64,000 nt of DNA from Aeromicrobium sp. Root495 (GTDB taxonomy: Bacteria; Actinomycetota; Actinomycetes; Propionibacteriales; Nocardioidaceae): contig NZ_LMFJ01000001.1 in the NCBI RefSeq assembly GCF_001426755.1, positions 170,961 through 234,960 of the forward strand, in the 5' to 3' direction. Position numbers and translations under genes: made by a program. Numbering within the stretch: position 1 is the first letter of the stretch; every line of letters begins with the position of its first letter. The notes beneath the pieces were generated by a model, which did no database searches, was not told where the DNA came from, and saw only the letters and a list, made by a program, of their open reading frames with translations. This document shows positions 41,931-62,388 of this stretch, in pieces.

Positions 41931-42290
41931 ATGCTCCGACCAGCTCGCGTCCTCGCACTGATGCTCCTGCTCCCCGCCGCCGTTGCGTGCGGCGGCGGAG
42001 GTTCGGACGATGCCTCGACCGCCGGCAGCAGCAGCTCGCCGGCGTGCAGCGACGTGTGGATGGTTGGCAAGACGCTCCCGAAGACCTATGAGGGGTGCGT
42101 GGCCAACGGTGACGAGCAGGCGTACATGGAGTACGGCGACTGCACAGACGGCCGGAAGTTCATCGGCTACGCCCCCGACGGCGGGCAGGCGTACTTCGCA
42201 GGGCTCGGCGGTGAGATCGGCAAGGGCTCGGTCGACGATGCCGCTTGGTCAGCCGCGCTGGCCGAGTGCACCGGCGAATCCGCCAACTGA
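41931..42290 (+). CDS. prophage-encoded small lipoprotein
   Basis: A 119-residue exported lipoprotein. After MLRPARVLALMLLLPAAVAC the Cys at residue 20 is acylated. A Gly/Ser linker leads to a domain of about 80 residues with Cys in PACSDVW, YEGCVANG, YGDCTDG and LAECTGE, four Cys that could form two disulfides. Placed between the att site and the lysis genes and read against them, it is likely a lysogenic-conversion gene, for example a surface protein blocking superinfection. The function is inference from position. Confidence 0.72.
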   Translation: MLRPARVLALMLLLPAAVACGGGGSDDASTAGSSSSPACSDVWMVGKTLPKTYEGCVANGDEQAYMEYGDCTDGRKFIGYAPDGGQAYFAGLGGEIGKGSVDDAAWSAALAECTGESAN

Positions 42291-42308
42291 CGCCAAACCC
42301 ACAACGCA

Positions 42309-42348
42309 CAGAGACGCCCCCACCGCCGAAGCGGTGGGGGCGTCTCTG
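42309..42348. terminator. bidirectional terminator ending lysis and moron transcripts
   Basis: A perfect 18-bp stem with loop CGAA separates the plus-strand lipoprotein gene from the end of the minus-strand late operon. Confidence 0.88.
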
Positions 42349-42373
42349 CTGGGCCTGGCTGGAGCTGCGTGCG

Positions 42374-42643
42374 CTACCCGTCGTCGCCGGCCGCGGGCGA
42401 CGGGTTGGCCGCGAGGATGGGCACGTACCGCTGCAGGAATCCCTCGACGGCCGGGAGCGCCATGATCCTCGTGATGGCCGCGCAGACGCCGACACCGACG
42501 GCCGCTGCGCCCGTTGCCGCCTCGGGCGAGTGGTTCGTGGCTGCCTCGTAGATCAGCGGAACGATGCCGGCGAACGCGACGGCTGCCTGGAAGGCGGATC
42601 GGATGGTGCGCCGGCGGGGCCGGCTGACGGTCGTGCTGCTCAT
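42374..42643 (-). CDS. phage holin
   Basis: An 89-residue membrane protein. Two hydrophobic stretches, AFQAAVAFAGIVPLIYEA (about residues 17-34) and ATGAAAVGVGVCAAITRIM (about 41-59), are joined by a short turn. A basic N-terminus and hydrophilic C-terminus complete the class II holin layout. AGGAG precedes the ATG. It is the last gene of the late operon, 10 nt behind the endolysin. It would form the membrane lesion that releases the endolysin. Confidence 0.8.
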   Translation of the reverse strand: MSSTTVSRPRRRTIRSAFQAAVAFAGIVPLIYEAATNHSPEAATGAAAVGVGVCAAITRIMALPAVEGFLQRYVPILAANPSPAAGDDG

Positions 42644-42653
42644 GCGACTGCTC

Positions 42654-44123
42654 CTATTCGGGTGGCCAGGCCGCGACGTTGACGTCGACGACCTGGGGGT
42701 TGTGGTCGGAGGACTTGTGGCCGTCGCGCTGGTCGGCCAGCTCGACGTCGGCCGTCTTGTGCACGAAGACGGCGTCCTCCCGCTCGCCCGCGGCGGGCAC
42801 CTTCCACCGGTTGATGGACGCGATGCCCTTGTCACGGACCGTCGCGGCGACGTCGAACGCGTCCCGGTAGTCGGTGTTCTCGGCGACCCAATCGCGCACC
42901 CACGCCCGGCTGTTAGCGTCACCTCCGACCACCACATGGTCGGGGGCGACGCCGTACTGGCCGCGGAGGCGGGCGACCTTGGCGAAGATCGCTGCGATCT
43001 GATGCACCCGCGCGAGGTCCGCGCCGGACTCGTTCTCGAGGTGGTACGACACGCACAGCCACCGCTCGCCGGTGACCCTGTTCCTCAGCACGGCCCACAC
43101 CATGGGCTTCTGGTCGCCCCGGTACAGCGTGTCGAGCGGCAGGTCGTAGAGGCCGGCCGCGACCTTCGTCCACCGGTTCTTGCGGTAGAAGATGACTCGC
43201 CACTTCCCCGATCCGGCCCCATTGGTAGCGCCGGCGTTGGCTAGGCCGAGCTTGTCGAGGGCCTTGTCGTACCACTTGACCTTTGACGGGCCGCCGGCCT
43301 CCTGCACGAGGAGCACCGAGGCGGCCATGGCGAGCAGCAGCTTCACCTGGCGGGCGCGACGGATGACCCAGGCCGGCCACTTCCCGACGAGCTCGGGGGC
43401 CTTGAGGTTCCACGACACGACACGCTCGATCGCCACCTTCGCCGGCTCCGCGGGGGGCGTGGCCGGCTTCGGTCCGGTCACGCCGGCCACGCGGGCGGCG
43501 ACGTCGCGGCGGAACTGGCCCATGTCCAGGTTGGGGTCCGCCTTCGTGCGCTGCGCAGAGATCTCGCCGTGGCCGACGGACTCGAGCCCGTCCCACTTCT
43601 TGTACCGGGCGACTGCGGCGCAGATCTTCACCGACGACGTGCGCTGCGCCGACGTCATCGTCTTGGCGGCGATGTTCTCGATGCCCATCGTGAACGCGTT
43701 TCCGTCGGCCCCCGTGCCGCGGAAGCGTGCGTCGTAGGACTTGTCGGTCGAGAAGTCGGCCGCGCGCAGGTGTGCCTGCACCGAGGTGCCGACCTGCCCG
43801 GCGTGGTTGCACCTGCCGGCGCTGTTGAGCCACACCGTGCCGTCGGGCTCGACGACGAACTGGCTCTTGGTCGGCACGTTAGGGTCGCCGTTGATGATGT
43901 CTCGGATGTACTGCAGCACGGTCCTGCTGCCGAGGTTGCCGGCCGTGATGTGCACGACGATGCCGTTGACGTCACCCCAGCCGCGGGAGTTACGACCGAG
44001 GCCCTTCTCGTGCGAGCCGTCGTGGCAGCGGCAGCGGTCACGCCAGCCGGGGACCTCCTTGACCGTGAGGCCCTCGGCCTTGAGAACGGCGAGCAGGGTG
44101 GACGGGGTCAGCGGTGCAGACAT
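42654..44123 (-). CDS. endolysin: amidase fused to an EEP nuclease/phosphatase-fold domain
   Basis: A 489-residue lysin. The N-terminal domain (about residues 45-212) is an N-acetylmuramoyl-L-alanine amidase of the Amidase_2/PGRP type with zinc ligands His58 (VVHITAG), His185 (VGHGEIS) and Asp196 (KADPN). After a Pro-rich linker, residues 230-489 form a second domain of the endonuclease/exonuclease/phosphatase superfamily. Asn239 (VVSWNL), Glu275 (LLVQEAG), His361 (SYHLEN), Asp402/Asn404 (GGDANS) and Asp473-His474 (SSDHNP) keep the whole catalytic set. Lysins usually end in a wall-binding domain, so this is unusual. The ATG at 44123 has AGGAGG-like GGAGGC upstream. Confidence 0.85.
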   Translation of the reverse strand: MSAPLTPSTLLAVLKAEGLTVKEVPGWRDRCRCHDGSHEKGLGRNSRGWGDVNGIVVHITAGNLGSRTVLQYIRDIINGDPNVPTKSQFVVEPDGTVWLNSAGRCNHAGQVGTSVQAHLRAADFSTDKSYDARFRGTGADGNAFTMGIENIAAKTMTSAQRTSSVKICAAVARYKKWDGLESVGHGEISAQRTKADPNLDMGQFRRDVAARVAGVTGPKPATPPAEPAKVAIERVVSWNLKAPELVGKWPAWVIRRARQVKLLLAMAASVLLVQEAGGPSKVKWYDKALDKLGLANAGATNGAGSGKWRVIFYRKNRWTKVAAGLYDLPLDTLYRGDQKPMVWAVLRNRVTGERWLCVSYHLENESGADLARVHQIAAIFAKVARLRGQYGVAPDHVVVGGDANSRAWVRDWVAENTDYRDAFDVAATVRDKGIASINRWKVPAAGEREDAVFVHKTADVELADQRDGHKSSDHNPQVVDVNVAAWPPE

Positions 44124-44144
44124 GGTGCCTCCTGGGAATGGCGA

Positions 44145-44173
44145 AGCCCCGGCGACCTCAGGTCGGCGGGGCT
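44145..44173 (-). other. hairpin between membrane gene and endolysin
   Basis: A 13-bp stem with one mismatch (AGCCCCGCCGACC) followed on the minus strand by TTCGCC, just upstream of the endolysin ribosome-binding site. It may terminate weakly or process the late mRNA. Confidence 0.5.
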
Positions 44174-44188
44174 GGGACGGTGCGGCGG

Positions 44189-44578
44189 TCAGTGCCCGGC
44201 GGGCGGTTCGGGCAGGGTGATGCCCTCGGCAGCGGCGGCCTTCCGAACCTCGAAGGCCCATGCCCGCCAGGCGACAACTTCGCCCTCCAGCCGGGCCACG
44301 GTGGCGCTGTTCTCGGCGTCGCGCAGGACACGGTCACGCTCGAGCTTGCCGACCTGGCCGTCGAGACGGCGCACGGTAGCTGCGAGGTTCGCGTACTCCA
44401 CGCCGCGACGCTCGACCGCGGCTTCGCGGCGGCGCTCGGCGTAGTCGTAGTAGCCGCGGCCGAAACGACCGAAGATCTTGGCGAGATTCTCGGACGCGGT
44501 GGCGGCAGCCACGAGGACCGCAGCCACGATCGCGGCGTAGATCACCCAAGGGTTGGACGAGACATCAGGCGCGGGCAC
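44189..44578 (-). CDS. phage membrane protein with coiled coil
   Basis: A 129-residue protein. One membrane helix (about residues 10-29, WVIYAAIVAAVLVAAATA) is followed by a long charged helix (about 45-115, AERRREAAVERRGVEYANLAATVRRLDGQVGKLERDR), a likely coiled coil. Its place between tail and lysin genes suggests a spanin-like or accessory holin role, but this is inference. Its start overlaps the preceding gene by 14 nt. Confidence 0.65.
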   Translation of the reverse strand: MPAPDVSSNPWVIYAAIVAAVLVAAATASENLAKIFGRFGRGYYDYAERRREAAVERRGVEYANLAATVRRLDGQVGKLERDRVLRDAENSATVARLEGEVVAWRAWAFEVRKAAAAEGITLPEPPAGH

Positions 44579-45035
44579 TGGCGGCCTCCTTCACCATCAC
44601 CGGGTGCGGCCCCATCCGCCACCAGAGCAGGCAGTGCAGCACCGTCGGGAGGGCGAGGCCCGCCCCGGAGCGGACGCCGTCGAGCCAGGGCCGATCGAGA
44701 TAGCCGGCGGTCAGCCCGATCGTCAACGCGAGGTAGACCGCGAAGAGCCACACATGACCAGCCCACACGAGGAAGTGCGCCCGCAGCACGTAGATGCCGA
44801 CACACAGCGCCGTCGTGCCGGCCAGGATGCCCAGCCCCCAGAGCCACAACGGGGCGGCGGCTTCGATGCCGACCAGCACCGGCGTCTGCCCCGGCTGCGG
44901 CGGCCTCGCCTGGGTGTCGTGGCCAGTCAGGTAGTCGTACGCTCTGACGGTGGCGGTGGCAGCCAGCGCGAGGCTAACTATGCGGACGTCGGCGCCGAGC
45001 AGCCGTGCTGGAGCGTAACGGTTGAACCTGATCAT
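44565..45035 (-). CDS. phage membrane protein (holin-like candidate)
   Basis: A 156-residue protein with about four membrane helices (near residues 17-33, 60-82, 88-112 and 124-142). No family is recognised. GGAGGGG precedes the ATG. First gene of the lysis group after the receptor-binding protein. Its topology resembles four-helix phage membrane proteins found beside endolysins. Confidence 0.65.
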   Translation of the reverse strand: MIRFNRYAPARLLGADVRIVSLALAATATVRAYDYLTGHDTQARPPQPGQTPVLVGIEAAAPLWLWGLGILAGTTALCVGIYVLRAHFLVWAGHVWLFAVYLALTIGLTAGYLDRPWLDGVRSGAGLALPTVLHCLLWWRMGPHPVMVKEAASARA

Positions 45036-45081
45036 GCGGCCCCTCCTGAGGTGGTTTTTACGCTTCCAGAGTTCAACCTGC

Positions 45082-47505
45082 TCACGCGACTGCCAGCCCA
45101 GCGACTGAGGCGAGCGCGGCGTAGGACGTCAGCGCTTCGTTCTTGCGCTGAAGAACCGAGGCGACCTGAGCAGGGCTGAGATGGGCGTGGAAGGCCACGG
45201 CCTCTATGTGCCCCCAGCCGGCAGCCTCGCCCGTCGTGAGCGTCGGGTACGCCTTCTTGTTGTTGCGCATGTCCCAGAGCTGCGACGCCGAGTTTGTGAG
45301 GCGTCGGGCGCTGCGTGCGGCGGAGGAGGCGCGGAAGGGCAGGTACCCGCCGACGAATCCGAGCTGGACGATGCCACCGGTCTCGACGGTGTCGAGGTGG
45401 AACGGTGAGATCTGACCCGCGACCTTCTCGGCCGCGGCGGTGAGGATGTTCGTTGCGGCGTAGGAGGTGTAGTCGGTGCCGGCGGACCAGTCGATACCGC
45501 CGACGGTGCCCATGCCGGGGACGTATCGGCGGGTGGTCATGCCAGCGATGGCCAGTGGCATGGTCTGGATCGCGCCCCACCACCCGAGCGTCGTCGGCTT
45601 GAGCTCGTCGAGGGTGGCTGTGATGAGCATGGTGCCGGCGCCTCGGAAGCTGTAGACGTTCTGCACCAGCACCGCGCCGGCCGCTGTTGCTGCGGTCGTG
45701 ACGATGGCCTGTCCGATGTTGGCCTTGAGCGCGTCATAGAGCGAGGCATAGTCGACAACCTCGTATGTCTCGCGGACGATGAACTCTCGGCCGTAGTAGG
45801 TGCCGTCAGCGGTGAGTTCAATGCCGTCGAGCCACAGGCTCAGCCGGTTGCGGGTGGTCGACCCCGGCGAGAGCATCGTGTTGCCCGACCCAGCCGACCC
45901 GGTGACCTTCGTCGTGTAGACGATCGCGCCGGTATGCGTTGCTCCGGAGACGTGGGTCAGGTTTGAGGTCGGGTTGACGTTGGCCGACGTCACCGGGGTG
46001 CCGGCGTAGGAACCGATGACCTTGAGCTTGTTGTCGGTCGTCAGTGCGGCGAGGACGTATTCGCGCGAGCCGTCGGTCCAGACCGAGCCGATGTCCGCAC
46101 CAGTCTTGCCGTCGGGGTTGTCGAATACGGCCATGCAGATGTAACCGTGGCCGGCGCCGACCGTGTCGAGCTGGGTGCGGATCGGAGTGATCTGGTCGTC
46201 GACGACCTGACAGGCGGCGCCGTTGAACGTCTTGGTGTCGAACGTGAAGCCGCCGTTCTTTGAACTGACGCGCTTCATCGTCGTAACCAGTGGCTTGCTG
46301 TCAACAGTTTCGGTGACGGTGAACGTGGTCCCGGTGATCGTGACCGCGACGCCGAGGCCGTTGGACAAGAGCTGGTTCAGCTTCGCGTCCTCGGCGGTAG
46401 AGCGGAACAGGCGCACCGACTCAGAGGTGTGAGGAGCGCCCTTCCAGCCCCACCGGTTACGGGTTCCGTCGCCGTACATGTCGGCGGTCAGCAGGGTGCC
46501 GCTGATGACGATGGCCCCGGTCGCGCGAGTCTTGACGCCTGTCACCGACGTCGCACCGACTGCCGACACGATGACCTCGACGACGACGTGGTGAGCGTCT
46601 GCGGGGACGGTGATGTTCGAGGTGGCCCGGAACTCCCATGTGTCGGTTGCGAGGGCCGTGGCGGTGCCGTCGACCTGCGAGAGGGAGGTGTCGTCGGCCT
46701 TGTAGAACCGGGCACGAATGCGGGCGTTCATCGACGTCGCACCAGTCGGAAACTGCGAGTTGACCATGGCGCCGATGCTGATGACCTCACCGGGCGTCAC
46801 AGGTACGACGTAGGGCGACGCGGACGTCAAGCCACCGAGGTAACCGACCCACACCGACGTGGTGCCAGAGCCGGCCACGCGTGTGTTCTCGATGCCGTAG
46901 GAGAAGCCCGAGGGAAGGCCCGTCGTGATCTCCACGATGTTCTGCGAGACGCCCGAGGACCCGGTCGACCCGCCGGACAGGCCGCCCTTGAGCTGGGGAT
47001 TCTTGAACCGGTTCCGCAGGTATTCCGGCGCCTGGGTCGTGGTTACGACGCCGATTCCCGCGACGGCCCCCGCGACAGCCTCCTCGGCCGCGGCCACCAC
47101 GTTCTCGTCAGCAGCGAGCGCCGCGCTCACCTGCTCCGGAATCGTCTCAACGCCCTCCTGCACTTCCTGCAGCGCGACAAACCAAGCCGGCTCGGGCGCG
47201 GAACTGGGCTCGAGGGTCGATGGATCGACCGGCACGAGATCCTTCATCAGCAGGTCGCCGGCGCCGGCAGTCACAAACGCCACGATGACGTCCTCGCCAG
47301 CGACGGTCGACGCGAACCGGTACGGCTCGCCTACCTCGAGCTCCACACTGGAGGGCGGGTTTGTGATCGGCACCGGCTGCGGCGTCGGGTAGACGAGGGT
47401 GTCGCCTGCCTCGCCGCGGAAGACTCGGCAGACGAGCATCGAGTCGCCGCTGTCACGCCAGTCAGGTCCAGAGCCGCGGTCGAGCACGACGGTACGAGTT
47501 GCCAT
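45082..47505 (-). CDS. phage tail fibre/receptor-binding protein
   Basis: An 807-residue structural protein. The first about 110 residues resemble a tail-attachment domain. VQEGVETIPEQVSAALAADENVVAAAEEAVAGAVAG (near 113-148) is a helical stalk. A Thr/Gly/Ser-rich beta region follows with a C-terminal lectin-like segment (LWLDGIELTADGTYYGREF and GGYLPFRASSAARSARR). It is the last structural gene, the usual place of the host-recognition protein. Its base composition is less GC-rich than its neighbours, suggesting domain exchange. Confidence 0.75.
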   Translation of the reverse strand: MATRTVVLDRGSGPDWRDSGDSMLVCRVFRGEAGDTLVYPTPQPVPITNPPSSVELEVGEPYRFASTVAGEDVIVAFVTAGAGDLLMKDLVPVDPSTLEPSSAPEPAWFVALQEVQEGVETIPEQVSAALAADENVVAAAEEAVAGAVAGIGVVTTTQAPEYLRNRFKNPQLKGGLSGGSTGSSGVSQNIVEITTGLPSGFSYGIENTRVAGSGTTSVWVGYLGGLTSASPYVVPVTPGEVISIGAMVNSQFPTGATSMNARIRARFYKADDTSLSQVDGTATALATDTWEFRATSNITVPADAHHVVVEVIVSAVGATSVTGVKTRATGAIVISGTLLTADMYGDGTRNRWGWKGAPHTSESVRLFRSTAEDAKLNQLLSNGLGVAVTITGTTFTVTETVDSKPLVTTMKRVSSKNGGFTFDTKTFNGAACQVVDDQITPIRTQLDTVGAGHGYICMAVFDNPDGKTGADIGSVWTDGSREYVLAALTTDNKLKVIGSYAGTPVTSANVNPTSNLTHVSGATHTGAIVYTTKVTGSAGSGNTMLSPGSTTRNRLSLWLDGIELTADGTYYGREFIVRETYEVVDYASLYDALKANIGQAIVTTAATAAGAVLVQNVYSFRGAGTMLITATLDELKPTTLGWWGAIQTMPLAIAGMTTRRYVPGMGTVGGIDWSAGTDYTSYAATNILTAAAEKVAGQISPFHLDTVETGGIVQLGFVGGYLPFRASSAARSARRLTNSASQLWDMRNNKKAYPTLTTGEAAGWGHIEAVAFHAHLSPAQVASVLQRKNEALTSYAALASVAGLAVA

Positions 47506-47550
47506 CAGACGTTCTCCTCAAAGTGGGTCGAAGGTGCGGTCGTTCGGCGG

Positions 47551-49080
47551 TCAGCCGAGGATCGCGAGGGACAGGGACTGCTTGATGCCCGAGCTGTCGC
47601 CCGACGTCGTGATCCCGGTGACCATCGCCGTGGCATCGAAGTCGACGTCGGGGTAAAGCAGCCGGTCGAGGTCGGAGATCTCGCGACCCAGGTGAGGGAC
47701 GACGTTGACGTCGTCGACCGTCCACGACGCCGACTGCACACGCGCGACGATCCGGTCCAAGATCCACTCGGCGTCGTCGGGATCCTGGATGTTTCGACCC
47801 AGATTGAACGTCAGCGTGTTCGTCGCCGCTGACTCGGATGCACCCCACGCGAGGACCTCGGGCTCATTGACGCTGGCCGCGTCCCGGGTGCCGACGACCG
47901 CCGAACGAGTCCCCCTGGGGAAGTCGGTGAACCCGACCGTGCCCGACGGGTACCAGGGCGCCAGCAGGTACCGGGTGCCACCCGTGTCGTTGGTGACCGC
48001 GACCTTCCAGGTCGACGAGTTGACCTGGGTGACCACGGCGACGAGCAGGTCCACAGAGCTCGTGCCATTGCCGTCGCGCGCGGACGTGCTGTACACCGAG
48101 GTCGGGCCCGCGAACTTGGGGAAGACGATGGTGCCTGGGTCGAACGTGAACGTCTTCGTCGCACCCGCCGCGACCTTCGCCCCGGGAGGGAACCGGAAGA
48201 TCGGTGCGGCGTCGAACGGAGCCGCACCCCACGGGGTGTCGTCGAAGTCAGGTGGGACGAAGCTGACCTCGACCCGGTCGGCGACGGCACCAGGGTCCTG
48301 CGCCCAAGCCAGGTCCTCGAAGCGGTCCTGCACCTGCAGCGTCTCCACGACAGAGCCCTCGCCGGCTAGGTAGTGGGCGTCGAGGACACGGATCGTTGTC
48401 CCGTCCAGGCTGAGGAAGATCGCTCCTAGGTTGGCGGCAGCGATCTCCTGCATGGCCGAGAGCTCGTCCGTCTTCCGCGGGAAGTAGGCCCCGTCGAGCT
48501 CGGTGCCGAACTCGGCCGAGAAACTGATGTCGTACCCGTTGCGCAGCGCGGCGGCCTGCAGGAGAGACGTGCTTCCGAAGCTCGACCCGAAGGCGCTCGG
48601 CCAGTCGTTCTTCACACGATTCGCGCGCCGGAGCTTGACGAGATCCTGGACCATGGTGAGAGTCAGGAACTTGTCGGACAGCTTCCCGCGGACGGGGTCG
48701 AGGATGAACTTTCCCAGCAGAAACGCTGTCGACCCCGACGGCCCGTCATAGGACGCGACGAGCTCGCACTGCCCGGACTTCGGCGGGGCCTCGTCACCGG
48801 CCCGCCACGGAGCCAGAAGCCCGCTCTTGGATTGCGGGATGGTGCACGAAGCCTCAGCGATCGGGAACTGTGTGGCCGCGTTGATCTGCCCCGGCATCAG
48901 CGGGGCGTCGAGGTTCGCGGTGACCGACCACTCGCCCACACGCGTCGTCCCCGCCGGCAGAGCCTCACCGTCGATCACCGACGCCGGCGGCCAGGACGAG
49001 TCCTCGACCCGCAGGTACACCGCCGGCGGCTCCTGCACGACCTCGGAAGGGTCCGGCCAACCGGCAGGCAGGGCCCGCAT
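47551..49080 (-). CDS. phage minor tail protein
   Basis: A 509-residue tail-tip protein. VYLRVEDSSWPPASVIDGEALP opens it, and the C-terminal half repeats beta-rich segments such as FEDLAWAQDPGAVADRVEVSF and VVPHLGREISDLDRLLYPDVDF. It follows the distal tail gene with a one-base stop/start overlap, the standard position of the tail hub or baseplate-like protein in actinophages. The exact role is inferred from order. Confidence 0.72.
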   Translation of the reverse strand: MRALPAGWPDPSEVVQEPPAVYLRVEDSSWPPASVIDGEALPAGTTRVGEWSVTANLDAPLMPGQINAATQFPIAEASCTIPQSKSGLLAPWRAGDEAPPKSGQCELVASYDGPSGSTAFLLGKFILDPVRGKLSDKFLTLTMVQDLVKLRRANRVKNDWPSAFGSSFGSTSLLQAAALRNGYDISFSAEFGTELDGAYFPRKTDELSAMQEIAAANLGAIFLSLDGTTIRVLDAHYLAGEGSVVETLQVQDRFEDLAWAQDPGAVADRVEVSFVPPDFDDTPWGAAPFDAAPIFRFPPGAKVAAGATKTFTFDPGTIVFPKFAGPTSVYSTSARDGNGTSSVDLLVAVVTQVNSSTWKVAVTNDTGGTRYLLAPWYPSGTVGFTDFPRGTRSAVVGTRDAASVNEPEVLAWGASESAATNTLTFNLGRNIQDPDDAEWILDRIVARVQSASWTVDDVNVVPHLGREISDLDRLLYPDVDFDATAMVTGITTSGDSSGIKQSLSLAILG

Positions 49081-49832
49081 CAGCCGACCTCGGTGAGGAC
49101 GTAGGACGAGTCGGCCAGCGCCAGCCGGTCATGCCACGACATCTTGAACGTTGGCGCGCCGTCACTGACGAGCACCTGGCACGGCGTCGCTCCACGCGAG
49201 GGCAGGAATCCCAGCCTGTCGACAGACCCCTCGGTCAGGCGAGCCGCGGTCGTGACGTTCGCGAACGTCCAGGCGATGACTGCGCCCTGGTCGGCGGCTG
49301 GCCGGAAGGAGACCGAACCTCGACGCGCGCCGGTGCCCGCCGGAGCGACGATCGGGACAACCGCCCCGTCAACCTCGATCGTCCCAATGGTGGCGCCAGC
49401 AGTCCGGATCGTCGTGTAGGACAGGTGATAGTTCTGACCGGCCCGGACACGCACTTCGCTCTGCTCGCCCACAGTGAACGCTGGCATCAGCACCTCGTCC
49501 ACGGCGATCGTCGCGGAGCTGCGCCCCTCAGTGCTTCGCGGATCCAGCATGTTGATCTGCGCGAGCACGGTGTCCAGCAGCCACACCTCGGCGTCCGGAC
49601 GCGACGCTGCGTAGTCCAGCCAGCGGGTTGCCTCAGGATCCTCGAGCTCGAACGAGAAGCCCCAGACCCGCTTCACGACCGGCGCGACCTGCGCGAACAC
49701 CACGTTTCCGATCGTGGTGAACAGAGACGCCGGACGAGAGGCGCTGATCGAGACCCCCGGTGCGACGTTGTCTAGGTGCTTCCAGGACCCGCCGACCTGC
49801 AGGAAGTACGGCGCCCCACGCGATGCCGTCAC
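49080..49832 (-). CDS. phage distal tail protein
   Basis: A 250-residue protein of the siphovirus tail-tip (Dit-like) class. RVWGFSFELEDPEATRWLDYAAS and the jelly-roll-like half VRVRAGQNYHLSYTTIR fit. The GTG at 49832 overlaps the tape-measure stop (GTGA), so the long frame running upstream is not used. It would connect the tail tube to the hub. Confidence 0.72.
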   Translation of the reverse strand: MTASRGAPYFLQVGGSWKHLDNVAPGVSISASRPASLFTTIGNVVFAQVAPVVKRVWGFSFELEDPEATRWLDYAASRPDAEVWLLDTVLAQINMLDPRSTEGRSSATIAVDEVLMPAFTVGEQSEVRVRAGQNYHLSYTTIRTAGATIGTIEVDGAVVPIVAPAGTGARRGSVSFRPAADQGAVIAWTFANVTTAARLTEGSVDRLGFLPSRGATPCQVLVSDGAPTFKMSWHDRLALADSSYVLTEVG

Positions 49833-51703
49833 GATGCCCCGCCCTTCCGCTTGATCTGGTGGTTCGCCTCGGCAACGGCCAGCGTGAACTCGCGCCCGCC
49901 GAGGACCAGCCGGTGCCCGGCCTCGACCGCTTCGATGAGGCGGAGCAGCAGCTCGACGACGTCGCCCTGAGATCCACCTGCGGGCAGCGGGGAGATGTTC
50001 GATCCGTCGGTCGAGGCGGACCCCATCGGGACGACCATCTCGTCCTGCCCCGCCTCGGCCAGGAGCGCCAGCGTGCCGCCCGGACGGGCCTTGACGATTC
50101 CGCCCTTCGCAAGCTGCGGGATCGGGTTGTCCGGCAGATCGACCGAGATCTTCCCCTTGCCGATGCTGTTCGGCAGCGCGCCGTTGATCTTGCTGATCGC
50201 AGCGTTGATCGAGCCCTTGACCACCTGCCAGATGTTTCCGGCGACCTCCGAGACGAAGCCCGACCCGCCCTTGAGGCCATCGAGCAGCGCCGACAGGACG
50301 GCGCGGCCGGCGGACCTGAGCAGCCCGCCGAGTGCGCGGATCTTGCCCGGCAGCCCGCGCACCGCGGACACAACGCCGTTGACGCCAGAGCGAGCGAGGT
50401 TGCCGATGCCCGACCACATCTCACGGAAGATCGCCTTTACGACCACCGCGGCACTCTTGAACGCGAACCGGATGGCGTTCCATCCCTGGGCCACTACGCC
50501 ACGGATGACCGCCCACGCGCCGCGCAGGATCAGCTTGATCCCGTCCCACACCCCACGCCAGTCGCCGCGGAGCAGCGAGGAGAAGACCTTGAAGATGCCG
50601 CGGATGATGGAGAACGTGCCGCGCAGGATCGTCAGGAGATTGGTGAGGGACGCCTTCGCGTACTGCAGGATGTTGTCGCCGAACGCCCTCCACAGGGACC
50701 GCACGATCGACACGCCGTCGGTGAAGATCGACTTGACGTCCGACCACACCTGAGCGACCGTCGTGCGGAACTGAGCGACCCTTGAGCCGGCGCGGTCAGT
50801 GTCGCCGCCGAGGCCGGAAAGGAAGCCGCGGATCACCGCGACGCCTCGAGCGATCGACGGGCCGAGATCGAGCAGCGCGGGCAGCAGCCGACCACCCACG
50901 AACGTCGCGAGCTTGTCGATCAGCGGCAGGAGCGCCGTGCCGATGGTCTCCTTGAAGTTGCCCCACGTGACCGCGAGCTTCTCGCCGGCAGTAGCCGACG
51001 CCTCAGCCGCGCCACCGACCTGGCCGCGGACCTCCTTGAGGATGATCTTCTGCGCCGCGAGGGTGTTGCCCTGCTCGACGAGGCCCTTGATGAGCTTCTT
51101 CTGGTCCTCGGTGAACGTGACGCCCGATCGACCGAGTGCAGAGATGCCCTTGATCGGGTCGTTGAGGGCCTTGCCCATCAGCACCGACGCCGAGGACACG
51201 CTGCCGAAGCCCGCGGCCGACAGGTCGGTCGCGGCCTGGGTCGCCTGGTTGAAGATCTTGTTGCCCTTGCCGGCCTCGTTGCGCACGTTCTTGAACGTGA
51301 GCAGCAGGTTCGCGCCGGTCTGGATGGCCTCGTCGTCCATGCCGGACTTGTTCGAGATCGCCGCCGCGAGGTTGCCGACCTGAGACGCGGTCACATTGGC
51401 CGCGCCGCCGGTCGCCTTGATCGTCTGCGTGGTGAGCGCGCCGACCTTCTGGGACTCCCGCGCTTCACCGATCGCGTCGCCGAGGAAGTCCTTGACCTTG
51501 ACCGCAGCGAACGCCGCACCCAGGGCGCCGGCGATCTTGCCGACGCCCATCCGCATGCCGCCGCCGAACCGCTTCCCGGCACGACGCCCGGCCTTGTCGG
51601 CCTCAGCGTCGACCGGGGCGAGGCCCCTAGCGACCTCTCCCTGCACGCCCTGGAAAGATGGGACCAGCGAGACGTATGCGGTTGCGAGCTCGGTTGCAGC
51701 CAT
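49829..51703 (-). CDS. tape measure protein
   Basis: A 624-residue protein that sets tail length. It has an N-terminal amphipathic start (MAATELATAYVSLVPSFQGVQ), helical stretches with QVGNLAAAISNKSGMDDEAIQTGANLLLTF, and several hydrophobic segments (about residues 250-430) such as LLTILRGTFSIIRGIF and GAWAVIRGVVAQGW. At about 0.15 nm per residue the tail would be near 94 nm. It follows the frameshifted chaperone pair, as expected. Confidence 0.88.
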   Translation of the reverse strand: MAATELATAYVSLVPSFQGVQGEVARGLAPVDAEADKAGRRAGKRFGGGMRMGVGKIAGALGAAFAAVKVKDFLGDAIGEARESQKVGALTTQTIKATGGAANVTASQVGNLAAAISNKSGMDDEAIQTGANLLLTFKNVRNEAGKGNKIFNQATQAATDLSAAGFGSVSSASVLMGKALNDPIKGISALGRSGVTFTEDQKKLIKGLVEQGNTLAAQKIILKEVRGQVGGAAEASATAGEKLAVTWGNFKETIGTALLPLIDKLATFVGGRLLPALLDLGPSIARGVAVIRGFLSGLGGDTDRAGSRVAQFRTTVAQVWSDVKSIFTDGVSIVRSLWRAFGDNILQYAKASLTNLLTILRGTFSIIRGIFKVFSSLLRGDWRGVWDGIKLILRGAWAVIRGVVAQGWNAIRFAFKSAAVVVKAIFREMWSGIGNLARSGVNGVVSAVRGLPGKIRALGGLLRSAGRAVLSALLDGLKGGSGFVSEVAGNIWQVVKGSINAAISKINGALPNSIGKGKISVDLPDNPIPQLAKGGIVKARPGGTLALLAEAGQDEMVVPMGSASTDGSNISPLPAGGSQGDVVELLLRLIEAVEAGHRLVLGGREFTLAVAEANHQIKRKGGAS

Positions 51704-51797
51704 CGGTCCTCCGTTCGGGCGCGGCGGACCAGCCGGGAGCAGACCTGCTCACGGCGGATGACGTGCGACGAGCGACCGTCGCGGAGGACCTGCACGA

Positions 51798-51818
51798 CGC
51801 GTCCCCGAGAAGGACGCG
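51798..51818 (-). terminator. hairpin between tail chaperones and tape measure gene
   Basis: A 7-bp stem CGCGTCC/GGACGCG with a 7-nt loop, in the only sizeable gap of the tail operon (51704-51822). Confidence 0.45.
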
Positions 51819-51822
51819 CCGG

Positions 51823-52658
51823 CTAGGAGGTGTGGCCCTTGGCCTGCACGCGGGCGATGTGACGCTCGCGGGCCAAGTCGTGCCGAGCCTGCTGCTGAGC
51901 AGCAGCTTCGAGCTGCTCAGTCAGCGCGGACGGGGTCGGGAGGATCTCGGGCTTCGTGCCCTTGTCCTTGACCTGGTGGTACTCGAGGGCGCGGAGACGG
52001 AACTCCATCAGCCGCAGGAGGTGCCACTCCTCGCTCATGGACTCGTCCGACCCCTCGGACATGTAGACCGCCGCACCCGCCGGGAGGTAGGTGGCGAGCG
52101 CGGCGGCCTTGCGGACGCTCAGCGTGCCGCGGTAGAGGTCGATCAGGTCGACCCCGTAGAAGCGTTGGAAGTCGGCTTCGAGAGCCCCGCTGTGCTCGAC
52201 TAGGAGGTAGGCGAGGCGGAGTAGTTTCCCGAGCTCAGCGCGGCGAAGATCTCGGAGAGGAACTCGCTCATCGGTTCGGTCGGGACGCGACCGGACTCGA
52301 GCCGGTGCGCCTCCTTCCAGCCGCGCCACTGGTCCTCGCCGAGCATGCGCTTCATCAGCCCGGGCAGCATGTGCAGGGCGTCGTTGTTCTGGATCTCGCC
52401 GAGCATCTCGAGGATCTCGACGTCGTCGAAGACGTCCTCGTCGAGCACGTAGTCGACACCGTCGAGAGGTACGACGAGGTCCTTCCTCGACGACGGCGTC
52501 GCTTCGTTCTTCGCTGCCTGCACGCCGGTGGCCCGCGGCTTGCGAGCCGGCGTCGCCTTCTTGGCGGGCGGGCGCTTGGCCGCGGCCTTCTTGGCCGGGG
52601 CCCGCTTCGCGGCGGGCTTGCGGTCGGTGGGCTGCTTCGCGTTCCGTGGTGCGGTCAT
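51823..52658 (-). CDS. tail assembly chaperone, frameshift product (gpG-T like)
   Basis: Predicted 278-residue fusion made by -1 slippage at 52224-52230. It joins the first 145 residues of the gene at 52200-52658 to a second frame reading LLRLAYLLVEHSGALEADFQRFYGVDLIDL, which closes at 51823. The second half has the LxxFYGVDLxDL pattern typical of actinophage chaperone T parts. Gene order before the tape measure gene is canonical. Ratio of the two forms controls tail assembly. Confidence 0.85.
52200..52658 (-). CDS. tail assembly chaperone, unshifted product (gpG-like)
   Basis: A 152-residue protein. Its first about 50 residues are a Lys/Ala/Pro-rich, histone H1-like tail (KPAAKRAPAKKAAAKRPPAKKA), followed by the globular part (DVEILEMLGEIQNNDALHMLPGLMKRMLGED). 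It would bind the tape measure protein during tail assembly. AGGAG precedes the ATG at 52658; an upstream ATG at 52718 lacks it. Confidence 0.82.
   Translation of the reverse strand: MTAPRNAKQPTDRKPAAKRAPAKKAAAKRPPAKKATPARKPRATGVQAAKNEATPSSRKDLVVPLDGVDYVLDEDVFDDVEILEMLGEIQNNDALHMLPGLMKRMLGEDQWRGWKEAHRLESGRVPTEPMSEFLSEIFAALSSGNYSASPTS
52224..52230 (-). promoter_or_regulatory. -1 ribosomal frameshift site GGGAAAC
   Basis: On the minus strand G GGA AAC lies in the zero frame of the chaperone gene. Slipping by -1 gives GGG AAA and then CTA, continuing into the T frame without a stop. The heptamer fits X-XXY-YYZ. Confidence 0.85.
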
Positions 52659-52740
52659 TCGTCGGCTCCTGTCGGGGTGCGTCGGCTGAGGTTGAACCGG
52701 CAGGGCGAGCGCCGACACACTCGCCCTGCCGGGGTCTGTG

Positions 52741-53286
52741 TCAGGCAGTGACGAGCGCGGGGTTGTTGGTGACGATCTCGTACTCGTACATCGTCACCTC
52801 GAACTCCATGATCGTCATGTCCGTGTTCTTGTGGGGGATGGTGCCGCTGAAGATCGCCTCACCCCGGATGACCTCGTACCGCTTGTGCACGTCGCCGTCG
52901 ACGAAGTCGGCGATGAACGCCCGCTCGTCGGTGATCGTGCCGGCGGCCGGCTTGATGCGCGTGATCCCGCCCGCCGTGGTGATGAGCGCGCCGGGCAGCA
53001 GGAGCCCCATCGTCACGAGGTTCTCCTCGAGCGCCTGGAACTTGAACATGTCCGTCGTCGAGGTGACACGACGGCGCACCAGCTTGCCGCCCTGCCAGCC
53101 GTTGAACGACGCGACGTCCTTGTCGGTGCTGACGTCGACGCCGTCCTCGGAGATCCACCCCACCTCCGGGAAGTCGCCGTCGTCGGGGGTGGCGAGGCCG
53201 GTCGGGAACGTGGTTCCGAGGTCGCCCACGTACACCGCCCCGTCGTGGTCGCCGTAGATGCGGATGTTCTCGAGTGCCTTCGTCAT
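52741..53286 (-). CDS. major tail protein
   Basis: A 181-residue tube subunit. LENIRIYGDHDGAVYVGDLGTTFPTGL is a typical opening of siphovirus tube proteins, with beta strands VGWISEDGVDVSTDKDVASFNGWQGGKLVRRRV following. Size and place between connector and chaperone genes agree. It overlaps the small upstream gene by 4 nt. Confidence 0.88.
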   Translation of the reverse strand: MTKALENIRIYGDHDGAVYVGDLGTTFPTGLATPDDGDFPEVGWISEDGVDVSTDKDVASFNGWQGGKLVRRRVTSTTDMFKFQALEENLVTMGLLLPGALITTAGGITRIKPAAGTITDERAFIADFVDGDVHKRYEVIRGEAIFSGTIPHKNTDMTIMEFEVTMYEYEIVTNNPALVTA

Positions 53287-53528
53287 GACTGGCTTCCCTT
53301 CGGTGCGGTGAGGCGCCCGTGTCCGATGTGGAGCACGTGGCGGGCTTCGGCGGCGGAGAGGTCCACCTCCGTGTCGGGTTCGTGGGTCTCTCCGTCGCGC
53401 GTGGTGTGCGTGACAGAGAGCGTGATCGCGACCTTCGCCGCCGTGGCGGTGTCGGGCGCTTCGACGGCCGGCGCCTCGGCGGGCACGACGTCGTCGACGG
53501 GAGGCTGTGAGTCCTGGGCCTTGGTCAT
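53283..53528 (-). CDS. small phage protein between tail terminator and tube genes
   Basis: An 81-residue acidic protein not recognised. The first about 30 residues are Pro/Ala-rich and probably disordered, and the rest forms a small beta domain (VAITLSVTHTTRDGETHEPDTEVDLSAAEARHVLHIG). Coupled by 4-nt overlaps on both sides, so made with the tail genes. Confidence 0.65.
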   Translation of the reverse strand: MTKAQDSQPPVDDVVPAEAPAVEAPDTATAAKVAITLSVTHTTRDGETHEPDTEVDLSAAEARHVLHIGHGRLTAPKGSQS

Positions 53529-53914
53529 GGTGTGGTGCCTTTCAGGTGGAGGTCGAACGTCTGCGTGTAGCGCGAACGGGGTACGGAGGGCGTCGGCAGG
53601 TTGCCGGGGCCGGAGAGCTCGGTGACCGTCTTGAGCAGGACGCCGGCGACCTTGGTCCCTTCCGCTTCGGCCAGAGCCTCAGCGCAGGCGCGGAGCAGCG
53701 CCAGGGCGTCGGCCTCGGTCTGGGCGAACGCCTCAACGACGACCGTCGCGAGCTCGGAGATCCGGCTGACACGGCCAGCGCCACCGGTGCGGATGACGCG
53801 CACGAACTCGTCGGGCAGCTCGTCCGGCAATCGCGACGCAACCGGCGTGCCGACTGACGCGAGGATCGTGGTCAGGAGGTCCTCGACGTCCGCAAAGCTC
53901 GCGACCTTAGCCAC
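53525..53914 (-). CDS. tail terminator/completion protein
   Basis: A 129-residue protein of the size and place of phage tail terminators. VEDLLTTILASVGTPVASRLPDELPDEFVRVIRTGG (from residue 8) and the ending SRYTQTFDLHLKGTT fit the class in which a small alpha/beta protein caps the tube. GTG at 53914 starts inside the previous gene (8-nt overlap). Confidence 0.72.
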   Translation of the reverse strand: MAKVASFADVEDLLTTILASVGTPVASRLPDELPDEFVRVIRTGGAGRVSRISELATVVVEAFAQTEADALALLRACAEALAEAEGTKVAGVLLKTVTELSGPGNLPTPSVPRSRYTQTFDLHLKGTTP

Positions 53915-54158
53915 GGCCGGCGTCGATCGCTCGCGTGAGGGCGCGGTCCTCGGCTTCGGCGCGCATGGCGTCCGGGGTGGCGGTGCGGACCGTCGCGCGT
54001 GCGCGGATCTGGCCCACCTCGGACGAGGCTTCCATGCCCTCGCCGCCAGCGTCGGCCATCGCCTGAGCGCGCCGCAGCAGGTCTGCCCGCACACCCTCGG
54101 ACCGCAGCACGTCACGGACGCCCTGGTCGTTCATCTTGATGCGGATGCGCGTGGCCAT
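53907..54158 (-). CDS. HK97 gp10-like head-tail joining protein
   Basis: An 83-residue basic protein. IRIKMNDQGVRDVLRSEGVRADLLRRAQAMADAGG resembles the short neck proteins between connector and tail terminator in actinophages. Its ATG shares one base with the preceding stop. Confidence 0.65.
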   Translation of the reverse strand: MATRIRIKMNDQGVRDVLRSEGVRADLLRRAQAMADAGGEGMEASSEVGQIRARATVRTATPDAMRAEAEDRALTRAIDAGRG

Positions 54159-54502
54159 CAGCCGTGCCACCTCTCGAGTCGTAGCAGGACGTGGTCCGAG
54201 CGCAGCCCGTACTCGTGGCGCTCGGGCTCGCCGAGGATCTTGTAGTCCAGGCCGTCGGGCCCACGGACGTGCTGACGGGCGGTGACCTGCGTGCCGGCAG
54301 GGAGGAAGACGCGCGCGGTGGCGGATGAGCCGGTGCGGTTCTCGTCGTCGGCCTGGCCGGGGCCAGGCTGGAACGAGCACCCCGTCACGTCGTCCTCGGC
54401 CGCCGGCGGCTTCTTCCAGTCCGCGACCTCGCGGCCGTGGTCGCTGGTCGTGGCCGCGGTGAGCAGCGTGATGGTCTGCTGGGTCGACGAGAGGATGCTC
54501 AC
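54158..54502 (-). CDS. head-tail stopper/connector protein
   Basis: A 114-residue protein. GTG at 54502 overlaps the upstream stop (GTGA). Beta-rich segments RVFLPAGTQVTARQHVRGPDGLDYKILGEPERHEY fit the head-closure (stopper) family. The long N-terminal extension in the same frame is a shadow. Confidence 0.7.
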   Translation of the reverse strand: MSILSSTQQTITLLTAATTSDHGREVADWKKPPAAEDDVTGCSFQPGPGQADDENRTGSSATARVFLPAGTQVTARQHVRGPDGLDYKILGEPERHEYGLRSDHVLLRLERWHG

Positions 54503-55038
54503 GAGCTGACCCGGTAGCGGTCGAGGATCGCCTTCTCGTGCTCGAGAAGCGCGATGCCGCCGGACACCCCGGTACCGACTAGGGCGAAGCCGACGTCGAT
54601 CTCGCCGGCGTGCTCGCGGGTGCGGCCCGACGGGGAGTCGATCGCACGGGCGGCGACCGCGGTCACGACAGCGACCACGTCCTCGGGAGCATTCTCGTAG
54701 CCGTGCGTGAGCACGACAAACGTCTTGCCAGGGCGAGGCGACCAGCAACCCGCGTTGAGCTGCAGGTAACCGGCCTCGGAGTCGTCGACCTGATCGAGGT
54801 CCACGACACGACCGTCAGTGACGACGCTGACGATCTCACCGATCTTGAGCGACGGCAGGAACAGCAAGTTGCTGCCGTCACCGTCGAGCTTGAGCGTCTC
54901 GGTAAACGCCGGCGCAATGTGCCACCCGCAGTAACTGCGGACGGCGCGCTGAGCCCGCTGGACGGCCGCGGCCTGGTCGCCCGACAGAAGCTTCGTCAGG
55001 TCACCGACAGCCGCGAGATCGTCCAGCGGGCCCGGCAT
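54499..55038 (-). CDS. head-tail connector (HK97 gp6-like adaptor)
   Basis: A 179-residue protein. DDLAAVGDLTKLLSGDQAAAVQRAQRAVRSYCGWHIAP (from residue 5) is the helical opening of gp6-type adaptors. The middle FLPSLKIGEIVSVVTDG is the beta insert, and the end LLEHEKAILDRYRV is a helix. It would attach below the portal ring. Confidence 0.8.
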   Translation of the reverse strand: MPGPLDDLAAVGDLTKLLSGDQAAAVQRAQRAVRSYCGWHIAPAFTETLKLDGDGSNLLFLPSLKIGEIVSVVTDGRVVDLDQVDDSEAGYLQLNAGCWSPRPGKTFVVLTHGYENAPEDVVAVVTAVAARAIDSPSGRTREHAGEIDVGFALVGTGVSGGIALLEHEKAILDRYRVSS

Positions 55039-55421
55039 CAGGCGCCCTTGCCGCGCGGCGTGCGCGCCTTGTTCGCCGGCTGCGCGGCAGCGGTCGTGAC
55101 CGCCCCCGCCTTCGCCGACGCGGCGTGCTCGTCGAGCTTGGCCTGCAGCTTCTCGGGGTCACCCACGAGAGACCGCAGGGCCTCGAGCTCGGCCGCGTCC
55201 TTCTCGGCCTGCTCGCGCCCCTCCGGGGTCGACGCCGCACGGAGCTGCTCGAGCTCGGCGGCGTCGGCCTCGGCCTGCGCCTTCGCCTGGGCCGAAGCCT
55301 CGGCGTACGGATCGACGACCGGCGTCGGCTCGGACGGCTCCAGCTCGAGAGCCTTCGCCTCCTCCGGGCGGTACCGGATGCCGTCCACGGTGATCATCCC
55401 GACCGTGTCGCGCGCGCTCAT
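55038..55421 (-). CDS. small phage head-region protein with coiled coil
   Basis: A 127-residue protein. The start MITVDGIRYRPEEAKALEL is a small beta hairpin. It leads into a long charged helix (AEASAQAKAQAEADAAELEQLRAASTPEGREQAEKDAAEL). This resembles head-fibre or capsid-attached proteins placed after the capsid gene. The role is not established. Confidence 0.6.
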   Translation of the reverse strand: MSARDTVGMITVDGIRYRPEEAKALELEPSEPTPVVDPYAEASAQAKAQAEADAAELEQLRAASTPEGREQAEKDAAELEALRSLVGDPEKLQAKLDEHAASAKAGAVTTAAAQPANKARTPRGKGA

Positions 55422-56764
55422 GCGGCGGGCTTCACGATCACGAGACGGGCCGGCTTCCAGATGACCTGCGCCGCGCGGAGCTCGCCGCGGACGTAGGTCA
55501 TGTTCCGCTGTGCGTAGTCCTTGTGCTGGTTGAACGCCACCACGGACAGGCCCTCACGGTCCAGGAGCGCCACCTGCTTGAAGTCACCGAGCACCGCGTG
55601 GGTGTCGATGAGCTTCTCGCTCGTGACGCGCGGGCGACCGAACAGGGTGTTGGCCCCGCCGCCGAACGGACCGCCGCTGTAGTAGCGGCCGTCGTTGTCC
55701 TGCAGGAGGTCGAGCGCGGCGTCCATCTCGGGCGAGAGGACGATCGCGTCGACGTTGCCACCCGCGACGCGGATGACCTTGAGGATGCCGATGCGGGCGG
55801 CGCGGATGAACGCCTTGACCGTGGCGTCGACCGGCAGACCGTCGGCGCCCACGGGCGAGGCCGTGTACTCGACGGACTGCACGCCGGTCGTGTTGTAGAT
55901 CCCCTTGGGCTGGCCGTTGATGCCGGTGCCGTTGAGGATCTTGTCCTCGACCACGGCGTCGAGCGAGTACCGCAGCTCGGCGTCCATGTAGGTCGCGAAC
56001 GCCGGGGCGTCAGCGAGGAGCTGGTTCGTGACGTCGTAGCCGTCGGCGTAGGTGTAGACCTTCGCGTCGGCGAGCTGCGTGGACAGCTCGCTGACCGGCT
56101 TGAGCGCGGCGGCGTCGGTACCCGAGGTGGCCTCGGGGACGACGGCGGCGTTGCGCGTGACCGCGATGACCTGGACGTACTCGAAGTTGCCCGCGGTCTG
56201 ACCACGGCTGATGAGGTCCAGGAACGTCAGGCGGTCCCGGTCGACCATGTCGACCATCGGCACCCGGATGTTCTGGATGCGGGCCTGCGGCGACGTGAGC
56301 GCCTTGCGACCGGAGAACCAGTCATCGAGGCTGCCGACCTTGACCTTGCCGATGTCGACGGGGGAGCCCTCGCCGACGCCGGAGGGGTTGGCCTTCTGGA
56401 ACGCCGTGTACTCGGCGGACTTGACGAACCGCTGGCCGAAGCTGCGGTGCTTGACCTTGGTGCCGCCGCCCTTGCCGCCGAGGCCGCCGAGGTCGTTGGG
56501 GTCACCGCCGCCGAGGTCGACGTCGTCGTCGACGTCGTCGTCGCTGTCCTCGATGGACTTGAGGAACGCGGCCGAGTCGGCCGCCTTCTTGGCCGTGTCG
56601 GAATCGGTCTTCTTGGACTGCGCCAGCGCGTAGTGCTTGGCGTAGTCGCGCGCCTCGTCCTCGGTCAGCTCACGGTCGCCGTCGGCCTTGGCCTTGGCGG
56701 CGATCTCCTGAGCAGCCTTGGCCGCGGCCTGTGCCTCCTTGAGGAGGCGCACCCACTTCTCCAT
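55418..56764 (-). CDS. major capsid protein (HK97 fold)
   Basis: A 448-residue protein. Residues 1-95 form a helical scaffold-like delta domain (LLKEAQAAAKAAQEIAAKAKADGD), ended by an acidic linker (DDDVDDDVD) where the protease likely cuts. The rest is the HK97 shell: IRVPMVDMVDRDRLTFLDLISRG, EDKILNGTGINGQPKGIYNTTG, AIVLSPEMDAALDLLQD. AGAAGGG precedes the ATG at 56764. It follows the protease gene by 20 nt. Confidence 0.93.
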   Translation of the reverse strand: MEKWVRLLKEAQAAAKAAQEIAAKAKADGDRELTEDEARDYAKHYALAQSKKTDSDTAKKAADSAAFLKSIEDSDDDVDDDVDLGGGDPNDLGGLGGKGGGTKVKHRSFGQRFVKSAEYTAFQKANPSGVGEGSPVDIGKVKVGSLDDWFSGRKALTSPQARIQNIRVPMVDMVDRDRLTFLDLISRGQTAGNFEYVQVIAVTRNAAVVPEATSGTDAAALKPVSELSTQLADAKVYTYADGYDVTNQLLADAPAFATYMDAELRYSLDAVVEDKILNGTGINGQPKGIYNTTGVQSVEYTASPVGADGLPVDATVKAFIRAARIGILKVIRVAGGNVDAIVLSPEMDAALDLLQDNDGRYYSGGPFGGGANTLFGRPRVTSEKLIDTHAVLGDFKQVALLDREGLSVVAFNQHKDYAQRNMTYVRGELRAAQVIWKPARLVIVKPAA

Positions 56765-56783
56765 GACTTTCCCTTCTGGTTGG

Positions 56784-57572
56784 TCAGCCCGCGGTCGCGA
56801 GCTGGATTGCCTGGAGCGCCGACTCGGTGAACGCGGACGGGTTGAAACCGGACTCCTCGGACTTGGACCCGGGGGTCTCCTCGTCCTTGGTCCGGCCGTG
56901 ACCGCTGGCCTTCTCGTCGTCGTTGCTTGCCTCTGCGTCGATGACGGAGAGGACGTCTTCGATCTGCGTGGCGGAGTCACGAATGGACTCCAACGCCTTG
57001 CGCAGGGTCGTCTCGTTCTTGGCCGAGATCGCTCGGCCGGCCTTCACGTCGCGGGCGATCTGTCGCGCCACGCCGGCGGCGGCCTTCACGGTGAGGAGCT
57101 CGGTCTCCTGGTTCGCGCCGATGGGCGTGGGACCGACCTCGTGGATCTTGAGGCGGCGGAGCTCGTACCAGTAGTCGTCGTCGTTCTCGACGAAGCCGGC
57201 CTCGACGATGTCGTAGGCGAACGAGAACTGCGTGACGCGGCGGCCCTTCATGAGCCGGTGCACCTGCGGGGCCTTGGATCCGGGGAGGGGGTCGACGAGG
57301 TCGAGCTGGCCCTTGATCCACAGACCCTTGTCGGTCTCCTTCGCCTCGAGCACGTGCCCGATGTTGAAGTCCGGATCGTCCATCCGGTGCGACCAGTAGA
57401 TCGGGATGGGGTCGCCCTTCGCGGCCCACTCGGCGAGTGACTCGGCGAAGGCTCCTGGCACGACGATGTCGCCGTAGGAGTCCTTGTTGCCGAAGACGCT
57501 GACGATGGCCTCGAAGACACCGGCGTCCTCGTCGTAAGCCTTGATCTGGACGGGCGCTGACTTGATCAACAT
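56784..57572 (-). CDS. prohead protease
   Basis: A 262-residue HK97-type (U35/S78) serine protease that cleaves the capsid delta domain. FGNKDSYGDIVVPGAF (residues 27-42), IYWSHRMDD with His62 and RVTQFSFAYDIVEAG with Ser117 are the active-site landmarks. The C-terminal third is acidic and Ser/Glu-rich, likely self-cleaved. The gap 57573-57635 before it holds a small hairpin with the TTCGCC tail. Confidence 0.92.
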   Translation of the reverse strand: MLIKSAPVQIKAYDEDAGVFEAIVSVFGNKDSYGDIVVPGAFAESLAEWAAKGDPIPIYWSHRMDDPDFNIGHVLEAKETDKGLWIKGQLDLVDPLPGSKAPQVHRLMKGRRVTQFSFAYDIVEAGFVENDDDYWYELRRLKIHEVGPTPIGANQETELLTVKAAAGVARQIARDVKAGRAISAKNETTLRKALESIRDSATQIEDVLSVIDAEASNDDEKASGHGRTKDEETPGSKSEESGFNPSAFTESALQAIQLATAG

Positions 57573-57635
57573 GTGCGGCCCTCCTCAGGGCATGGCGAAG
57601 CCGGCGCCGCGGCGCCTCACTCCGGTCGGGGTGGT

Positions 57636-59570: not shown

Positions 59571-59773
59571 CAGGGAACCTGCACCCAGGCGACGCGGTCG
59601 GACGGGATGACGAGCACGCCGTCGAAGGACCGCGGAGCGGCGCCTTCGGTCAGCAGGATCACGTTCTCGAGCTCGATCGTGGTGCCGGTCAGCCGGGCGA
59701 TGACGCCCTCGACGGTCATGCTGTCGGTCTCGACGATCACTCGACGCGAGACGTGCGTGCGCAGATCCTTCAC
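59570..59773 (-). CDS. small phage protein between terminase and portal
   Basis: A 67-residue protein with a small beta-barrel look (VIVETDSMTVEGVIARLTGTTIELENVILL, Sm-like). GGAGG precedes the GTG. Such tiny genes are common at this place in actinophages; the role is unknown. Confidence 0.65.
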   Translation of the reverse strand: MKDLRTHVSRRVIVETDSMTVEGVIARLTGTTIELENVILLTEGAAPRSFDGVLVIPSDRVAWVQVP

Positions 59774-59783
59774 CGGAGCCTCC

Positions 59784-62342: not shown

Positions 62343-62365
62343 GGGCCACCCCCGTACACGACGAA

Positions 62366-62388
62366 GGCCCCACGCTGAGCGTGAGGCC
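62366..62388 (-). terminator. terminator between early genes and the packaging operon
   Basis: An 11-bp stem GGCCTCACGCT/AGCGTGGGGCC with one U-G pair, then TTCGTC on the minus strand. It separates the small early genes from HNH. Confidence 0.6.

Follow-up and report, generated by a model that had tools for sequence, protein, structure and literature searches.

One intact gene on the minus strand of the window, the 64,000-nucleotide stretch of the Aeromicrobium sp. Root495 genome analysed here, encodes an endolysin that joins an amidase fold to a second domain with the endonuclease/exonuclease/phosphatase (EEP) fold and its full catalytic set. The gene lies in the lysis-cassette position of a prophage, and the pairing of EEP domains with wall hydrolases is conserved in other loci. 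Leaving the substrate aside, it is very likely that the second domain is an active EEP phosphoesterase that serves as a lysis partner. Judged from sequence, it is a real, rare and apparently catalytic lysis-partner domain and not a wall binder. Endolysins are usually built from wall-cutting domains and binding domains. The endolysin itself is therefore of a known kind, and its EEP-bearing form is apparently undescribed in the literature that we found: a search of papers open without subscription returned no description of an endolysin with an EEP or nuclease domain.

Table 1 Features of the lysis region and prophage in the window
Feature	Position	Strand	Description and basis
Prophage	41961..64000		Left end near 41961, runs past the window; IMG/VR contig and gene map
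Holin-like protein	42374..42643	-	89 aa, two hydrophobic segments; hydropathy; phrog_4316 (function unknown) 9.1e-20
Amidase-EEP endolysin gene	42654..44123	-	489 aa; open frame, RBS-like AGGAGG at 44128-44133; phrog_880 endolysin 1.3e-28
C-terminal EEP phosphoesterase domain	42657..43433	-	aa 231-489; profile vs PDB 3g6s 1.6e-27; AlphaFold2; invariant catalytic columns
Pro/Ala-rich linker	43434..43478	-	aa 216-230; sequence
N-terminal zinc amidase domain	43479..44123	-	aa 1-215; Pfam Amidase_2 PF01510, 3.4e-12, aa 50-197
Small protein upstream of lysin	44189..44578	-	N-terminal hydrophobic stretch; phrog_726 (function unknown) 8.9e-06
Protein related to phage minor tail family	44565..45035	-	Adjoins lysis genes; phrog_1298 2.2e-12

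The lysin gene and its prophage

The lysin gene starts with an ATG at 44123, with AGGAGG immediately 5' of it, and stops at 42654-42656. The protein scores 47.2 bits against PF01510 (cut-off 26), and residues 1-217 are 33-34% identical to Streptomyces phage endolysins. The Amidase_2 endolysins of phages Paradiddles, NootNoot and Samisti12 (phrog_880) share this N-terminal amidase at about 33% identity, but among the matches listed none extends past query residue 217, and many are annotated as LysM-like instead. His58, His185 and Asp196, which from knowledge of the family we take to be the zinc ligands of the amidase, are all present. The N-terminus has no hydrophobic stretch, i.e., no signal peptide. 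GC at the third codon position stays at 0.93 from the amidase through the linker into the EEP domain, and this uniformity gives no suggestion of a frameshift. A lysin from another phage contig (L002) has the same domain order in one frame, so that a single gene, as the original prediction supposed, is what we find.

The prophage is about 36.8 kb long. IMG/VR contig IMGVR_UViG_2643221697_000001 (36,791 bp) carries an identical EEP domain near its end, and an integrase (L046:13242-14357) lies close to the opposite end of the prophage. The gene order is tail genes, then the lysin, then the holin-like gene, which begins 10 bases downstream of the lysin stop; the lysin thus adjoins the holin-like gene in a lysis-cassette position. 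Both position and hydropathy point to a holin for the 89-aa protein.

Fold and catalytic residues of the EEP domain

On its own, the EEP domain of the window scored 14.7 bits against Pfam PF03372 (cut-off 24.5), and that of L002, which is 51% identical to it, scored above the cut-off at 42.7 bits (7e-11). A profile built from 14 relatives matched PDB entries 3g6s (1.6e-27) and 4c1r (1.9e-20) as well as nocturnin (4e-16). Using three sequences, we generated an AlphaFold2 model of the domain (pLDDT 69, pTM 0.77), for which the top Foldseek matches in the PDB were nocturnin, TDP2 and 3g6s at ~1e-12 (best 7e-13). Structural Z scores were 23.5 for nocturnin, 23.4 for 3g6s and 22.9 for 4c1r, compared with 20.9 for human neutral sphingomyelinase and 19.4 for Bacillus sphingomyelinase (nocturnin group, ~23). 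DNase I is absent among the best 50 structural matches, although absence from such a list is not exclusion. Based on the profile matches together with the AlphaFold2 model and its Foldseek and Z-score matches, the EEP fold of the second domain is secure; the sub-family is not. The fold that the original prediction had read from landmark residues is therefore borne out by structure prediction, and by profile and model the closest solved relatives are the group of nocturnin, TDP2, PDE12, 3g6s and mannosyl-6-phosphatase rather than DNase I or sphingomyelinase. Within this group, 3g6s (a Bacteroides EEP family protein of unknown function) and 4c1r (mannosyl-6-phosphatase) are closest by profile, with Z scores of ~23, but their identity is about 19% and the solved chains contain no wall hydrolase. 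Human nocturnin, TDP2 and PDE12 are the best structural matches, but they are eukaryotic intracellular enzymes with unrelated substrates.

The catalytic set in the window domain consists of Asn239, Glu275, His361, Asp402, Asn404, Asp450, Asp473 and His474. Every residue that had been claimed for either domain is at its place, and Asp450, which had not been listed, is the second catalytic Asp of EEP enzymes. All eight catalytic columns, Asp450 included, are invariant in 14 aligned EEP domains that are 22-50% identical to that of the window. From this complete set, we predict that the domain is probably catalytic, and the claim of a lysin with a complete EEP second domain stands. Conservation of precisely the EEP catalytic residues is not what one would expect of a domain that only binds, and none of the evidence points to the inactive wall binder that had been envisaged as an adverse outcome.

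Pairing of the EEP domain with wall hydrolases

EEP domains paired with wall hydrolases were recovered in several architectures. In L002, located on a 39.6-kb phage contig, Amidase_2, LysM and EEP domains are encoded in one frame, and the next gene encodes a membrane protein of 64 aa with weak similarity to a holin family. The pair is split in L088, a phage contig of 126 kb with 46% GC in the stretch examined, in which an Amidase_2 gene (5093-5980) and a separate EEP gene (5977-6732) overlap by 4 bp. Four genomes from the same genus as the window (L008, L009, L011 and L078) encode proteins composed of CHAP-like, peptidoglycan-binding and EEP domains, which have phrog_17214 endolysin matches down to 1e-17 and are solitary among host genes. 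The original prediction held that no wall-binding domain follows the amidase, which is true of the window protein but not of L002, where a LysM lies between amidase and EEP.

In a maximum-likelihood tree, six of the wall-hydrolase-linked EEPs form one branch (support 96/98), separate from the fn3-EEP, secreted, transfer-cluster and stand-alone phage EEPs. A stand-alone genomic EEP (L035), once added, nests within this branch (99/98). The amidase parts of the window lysin and L002 have no detectable similarity (BLASTP E 0.24) and their EEP domains are about 50% identical, suggesting that the EEP domain stayed while the partner enzyme was exchanged; the amidases of the window and L088 are 30% identical. 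As judged from these sequences, a single EEP family persisted with different wall-hydrolase partners, which are either fused to it or encoded alongside. The pairing is a selected, family-level trait that extends beyond one prophage.

Relatives are few in the collections searched. With tblastn, the window EEP domain had no match in 50,697 phage records or 72,556 plasmids, and the EEPs of L002, L038, L008 and L088 had none in the same 50,697 phage records. Two scans of genome contigs found no relative, and a search with the full-length L002 lysin (E 1e-20; 342 genomes of the family) matched only the window's own genome. A sampled class-wide search gave an EEP match in 21 of 395 genomes; the best of these loci from other genera appear from their sequences to encode fn3-EEP proteins or EEP proteins with an export signal, and no lysin fusion was seen among them.

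Some of these genes lie in host sequence. Lone endolysin-like genes for CHAP, peptidoglycan-binding and EEP domains (L036:9666-11165, L037:8760-10259, L041:9898-11397 and L078:8856-10406) are located amid housekeeping genes, with no prophage visible around them in these four genomes. In three of the genomes the gene occupies one common site, and in the fourth a different one. The shared site reads as lying between a dGTPase-like gene and dnaG. The stand-alone EEP gene of L035 (9487-10323, genome G008) is also in host sequence, ~1.4 kb outside a phage integrase.

Proposed role and substrate

We propose that the bifunctional endolysin, which lacks a signal peptide, is synthesised in the cytoplasm and would escape once the membrane is opened by the neighbouring holin. 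The amidase would cleave the peptide stems of peptidoglycan, its predicted activity, while the EEP domain, released alongside, would act as an active divalent-metal-dependent phosphoesterase most likely on an anionic, phosphate-bearing polymer in the host envelope, either teichoic-acid-like or a phosphorylated glycan. The lysin may thus strip a second wall layer besides peptidoglycan. We infer the catalysis, metal use and substrate of the EEP domain, and we rate the joint proposal of a bifunctional lysin, an active EEP lysis partner and an envelope-polymer substrate at somewhat less than an even chance. According to the original prediction, the lysin could act on DNA or on a phosphoester of the envelope. 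The EEP domain is indeed complete and probably catalytic, and its relatives back a role in lysis, but neither sequence nor predicted fold tells which of DNA, phospholipid and wall polymer is the substrate. The further idea that the domain blocks rival phages finds no support in this analysis.

Several pieces of evidence lead us to favour, modestly, an anionic envelope phosphoglycan over DNA: (i) The partners are wall hydrolases in every fusion of the lysin branch. (ii) The host EEP homologues look surface-located or secreted. (iii) Every lysin-linked EEP domain has a basic pI, in the range 9.5-10.2, which suits a polyanion. (iv) A glycan phosphatase, 4c1r, is among the nearest solved relatives. 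(v) A generally active DNase made late inside the cell would put phage DNA not yet packaged at risk, whereas an envelope enzyme presumably would not. However, basic charge and fold suit DNA equally, and the self-harm argument is weakened because an EEP nuclease can have a strict need for Ca2+ and hence be silent in the cytoplasm. A strict Ca2+ dependence is seen in ExeM of Shewanella, an EEP nuclease that acts extracellularly and breaks down both DNA and RNA (PMC6085458). Like the window lysin, ExeM has its EEP catalytic domain in a multidomain protein and works outside the cytoplasm, but it is membrane-associated, with LTD and YcgR-like domains and no amidase (PMC6085458). The envelope reading is also weakened by the transfer-cluster EEPs, which group with the lysin branch at only 57/50, and by the stand-alone EEP genes of other phages, whose positions are remote from the lysis genes.

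The EEP domain could accordingly be a Ca2+- or Mg2+-dependent nuclease that becomes active once lysis mixes the cytoplasm with the outside, cutting host DNA, lowering viscosity and freeing virions. EEP domains are often nucleases, and the basic domain with its full catalytic residue set is consistent with such an enzyme. We nevertheless consider it possible but doubtful, in that the pairing is specific to wall hydrolases across several architectures and an EEP domain is also borne by a wall hydrolase of a transfer gene cluster, where a DNase would be odd; the place of DNase I outside the best 50 structural matches points the same way without excluding it. A phospholipase C-like enzyme that hydrolyses the headgroups of membrane phospholipids and aids membrane breakage at lysis is improbable: neutral sphingomyelinases have the same fold (Z 19-21), but the nocturnin, TDP2 and 3g6s group is nearer, the membrane is already permeabilised by holins, and sphingolipids are not expected in this actinobacterial host. 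Slightly less probable still is a domain that has lost catalysis and replaces the normal binding domain as a wall binder. The EEP domain does occupy the usual place of a binding domain in a protein with no other recognised one, but relatives at about 25% identity all share its eight catalytic residues, and the LysM in L002 and the peptidoglycan-binding module in the CHAP-like fusions, both present besides the EEP, argue that it is not a simple substitute for a binding domain. A sequencing error or annotation slip that joined two genes can be dismissed, since codon-position GC is uniform across the junction, the linker is a proper one and the independent fusion in L002 refutes it in practice, with nothing in its favour except that the two parts are separate overlapping genes in L088.

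If the envelope polymer is the substrate, a parallel is offered by the mycobacteriophages, in which LysA is accompanied by LysB, an additional lysis enzyme directed at another wall layer. The likeness lies in the idea of a second enzyme; LysB is an alpha/beta-hydrolase esterase and not an EEP enzyme. In a broader and more tentative reading, a family of actinobacterial phages, along with a conjugative element that does so in parallel, would use EEP domains as dedicated second lysis enzymes on an envelope phosphodiester or phosphoglycan polymer. Such an enzyme would be a counterpart of LysB for a different wall layer and the first EEP to act on a bacterial wall polymer. Because relatives in other phages indicate that the pairing is selected, phage lysis here may hit a second target besides peptidoglycan, either a phosphate-containing wall polymer or DNA. 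A recurrent lysin-coupled phosphoesterase would mean that lysis in some actinobacteria must overcome a second barrier or that cutting nucleic acid at release benefits the phages. Should the target prove to be a wall polymer, the EEP domain would be a new reagent for the poorly known actinobacterial envelope.

EEP proteins outside the lysin-linked branch

In two genomes, an EEP domain precedes SLT_3-like (lysozyme-like) and NlpC/P60 or CHAP-like domains in one protein (L039:9539-11494 in G011 and L040:9637-11568 in G025), encoded in a gene cluster that reads as conjugative transfer. The protein reads as a transfer-system wall hydrolase with a phosphoesterase domain. These EEPs join the lysin-linked branch without support (57/50), and the tree neither shows nor rejects a common origin of the two.

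The host genus also has EEP proteins with fn3 repeats, which look like surface or secreted proteins. Examples found genus-wide (L004-L006) are 22-28% identical to the window EEP and have the same invariant catalytic columns, but they differ in their fn3 repeats, hydrophobic N-termini and separate tree branches. Exported-looking fn3-EEP genes also occur in tandem arrays of two to three (L042:3664-8359 and L079-L087). Both manA and manC lie beside such arrays in the window's own genome and in six of nine relatives examined; a tie to GDP-mannose genes is nonetheless weak, as other genomes keep the arrays without manA and manC.

The fold search also returned phage EEP proteins without a fusion, in particular from Streptomyces phage Yosif, whose gene 5 product is annotated as hypothetical, has the same length (232 aa) with the motifs present, and is encoded upstream of the terminase gene. 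Stand-alone phage EEP genes without an export signal (L038:9926-10684, L044:6001-6756 and L090:1675-2373, the last being Yosif gp5) are located in early or left-end regions, away from the lysis genes. The model of a predicted tail fibre protein of Citrobacter phage CR8 (BFVD W6PNE5) also matches the EEP fold (Foldseek 9.8e-07).
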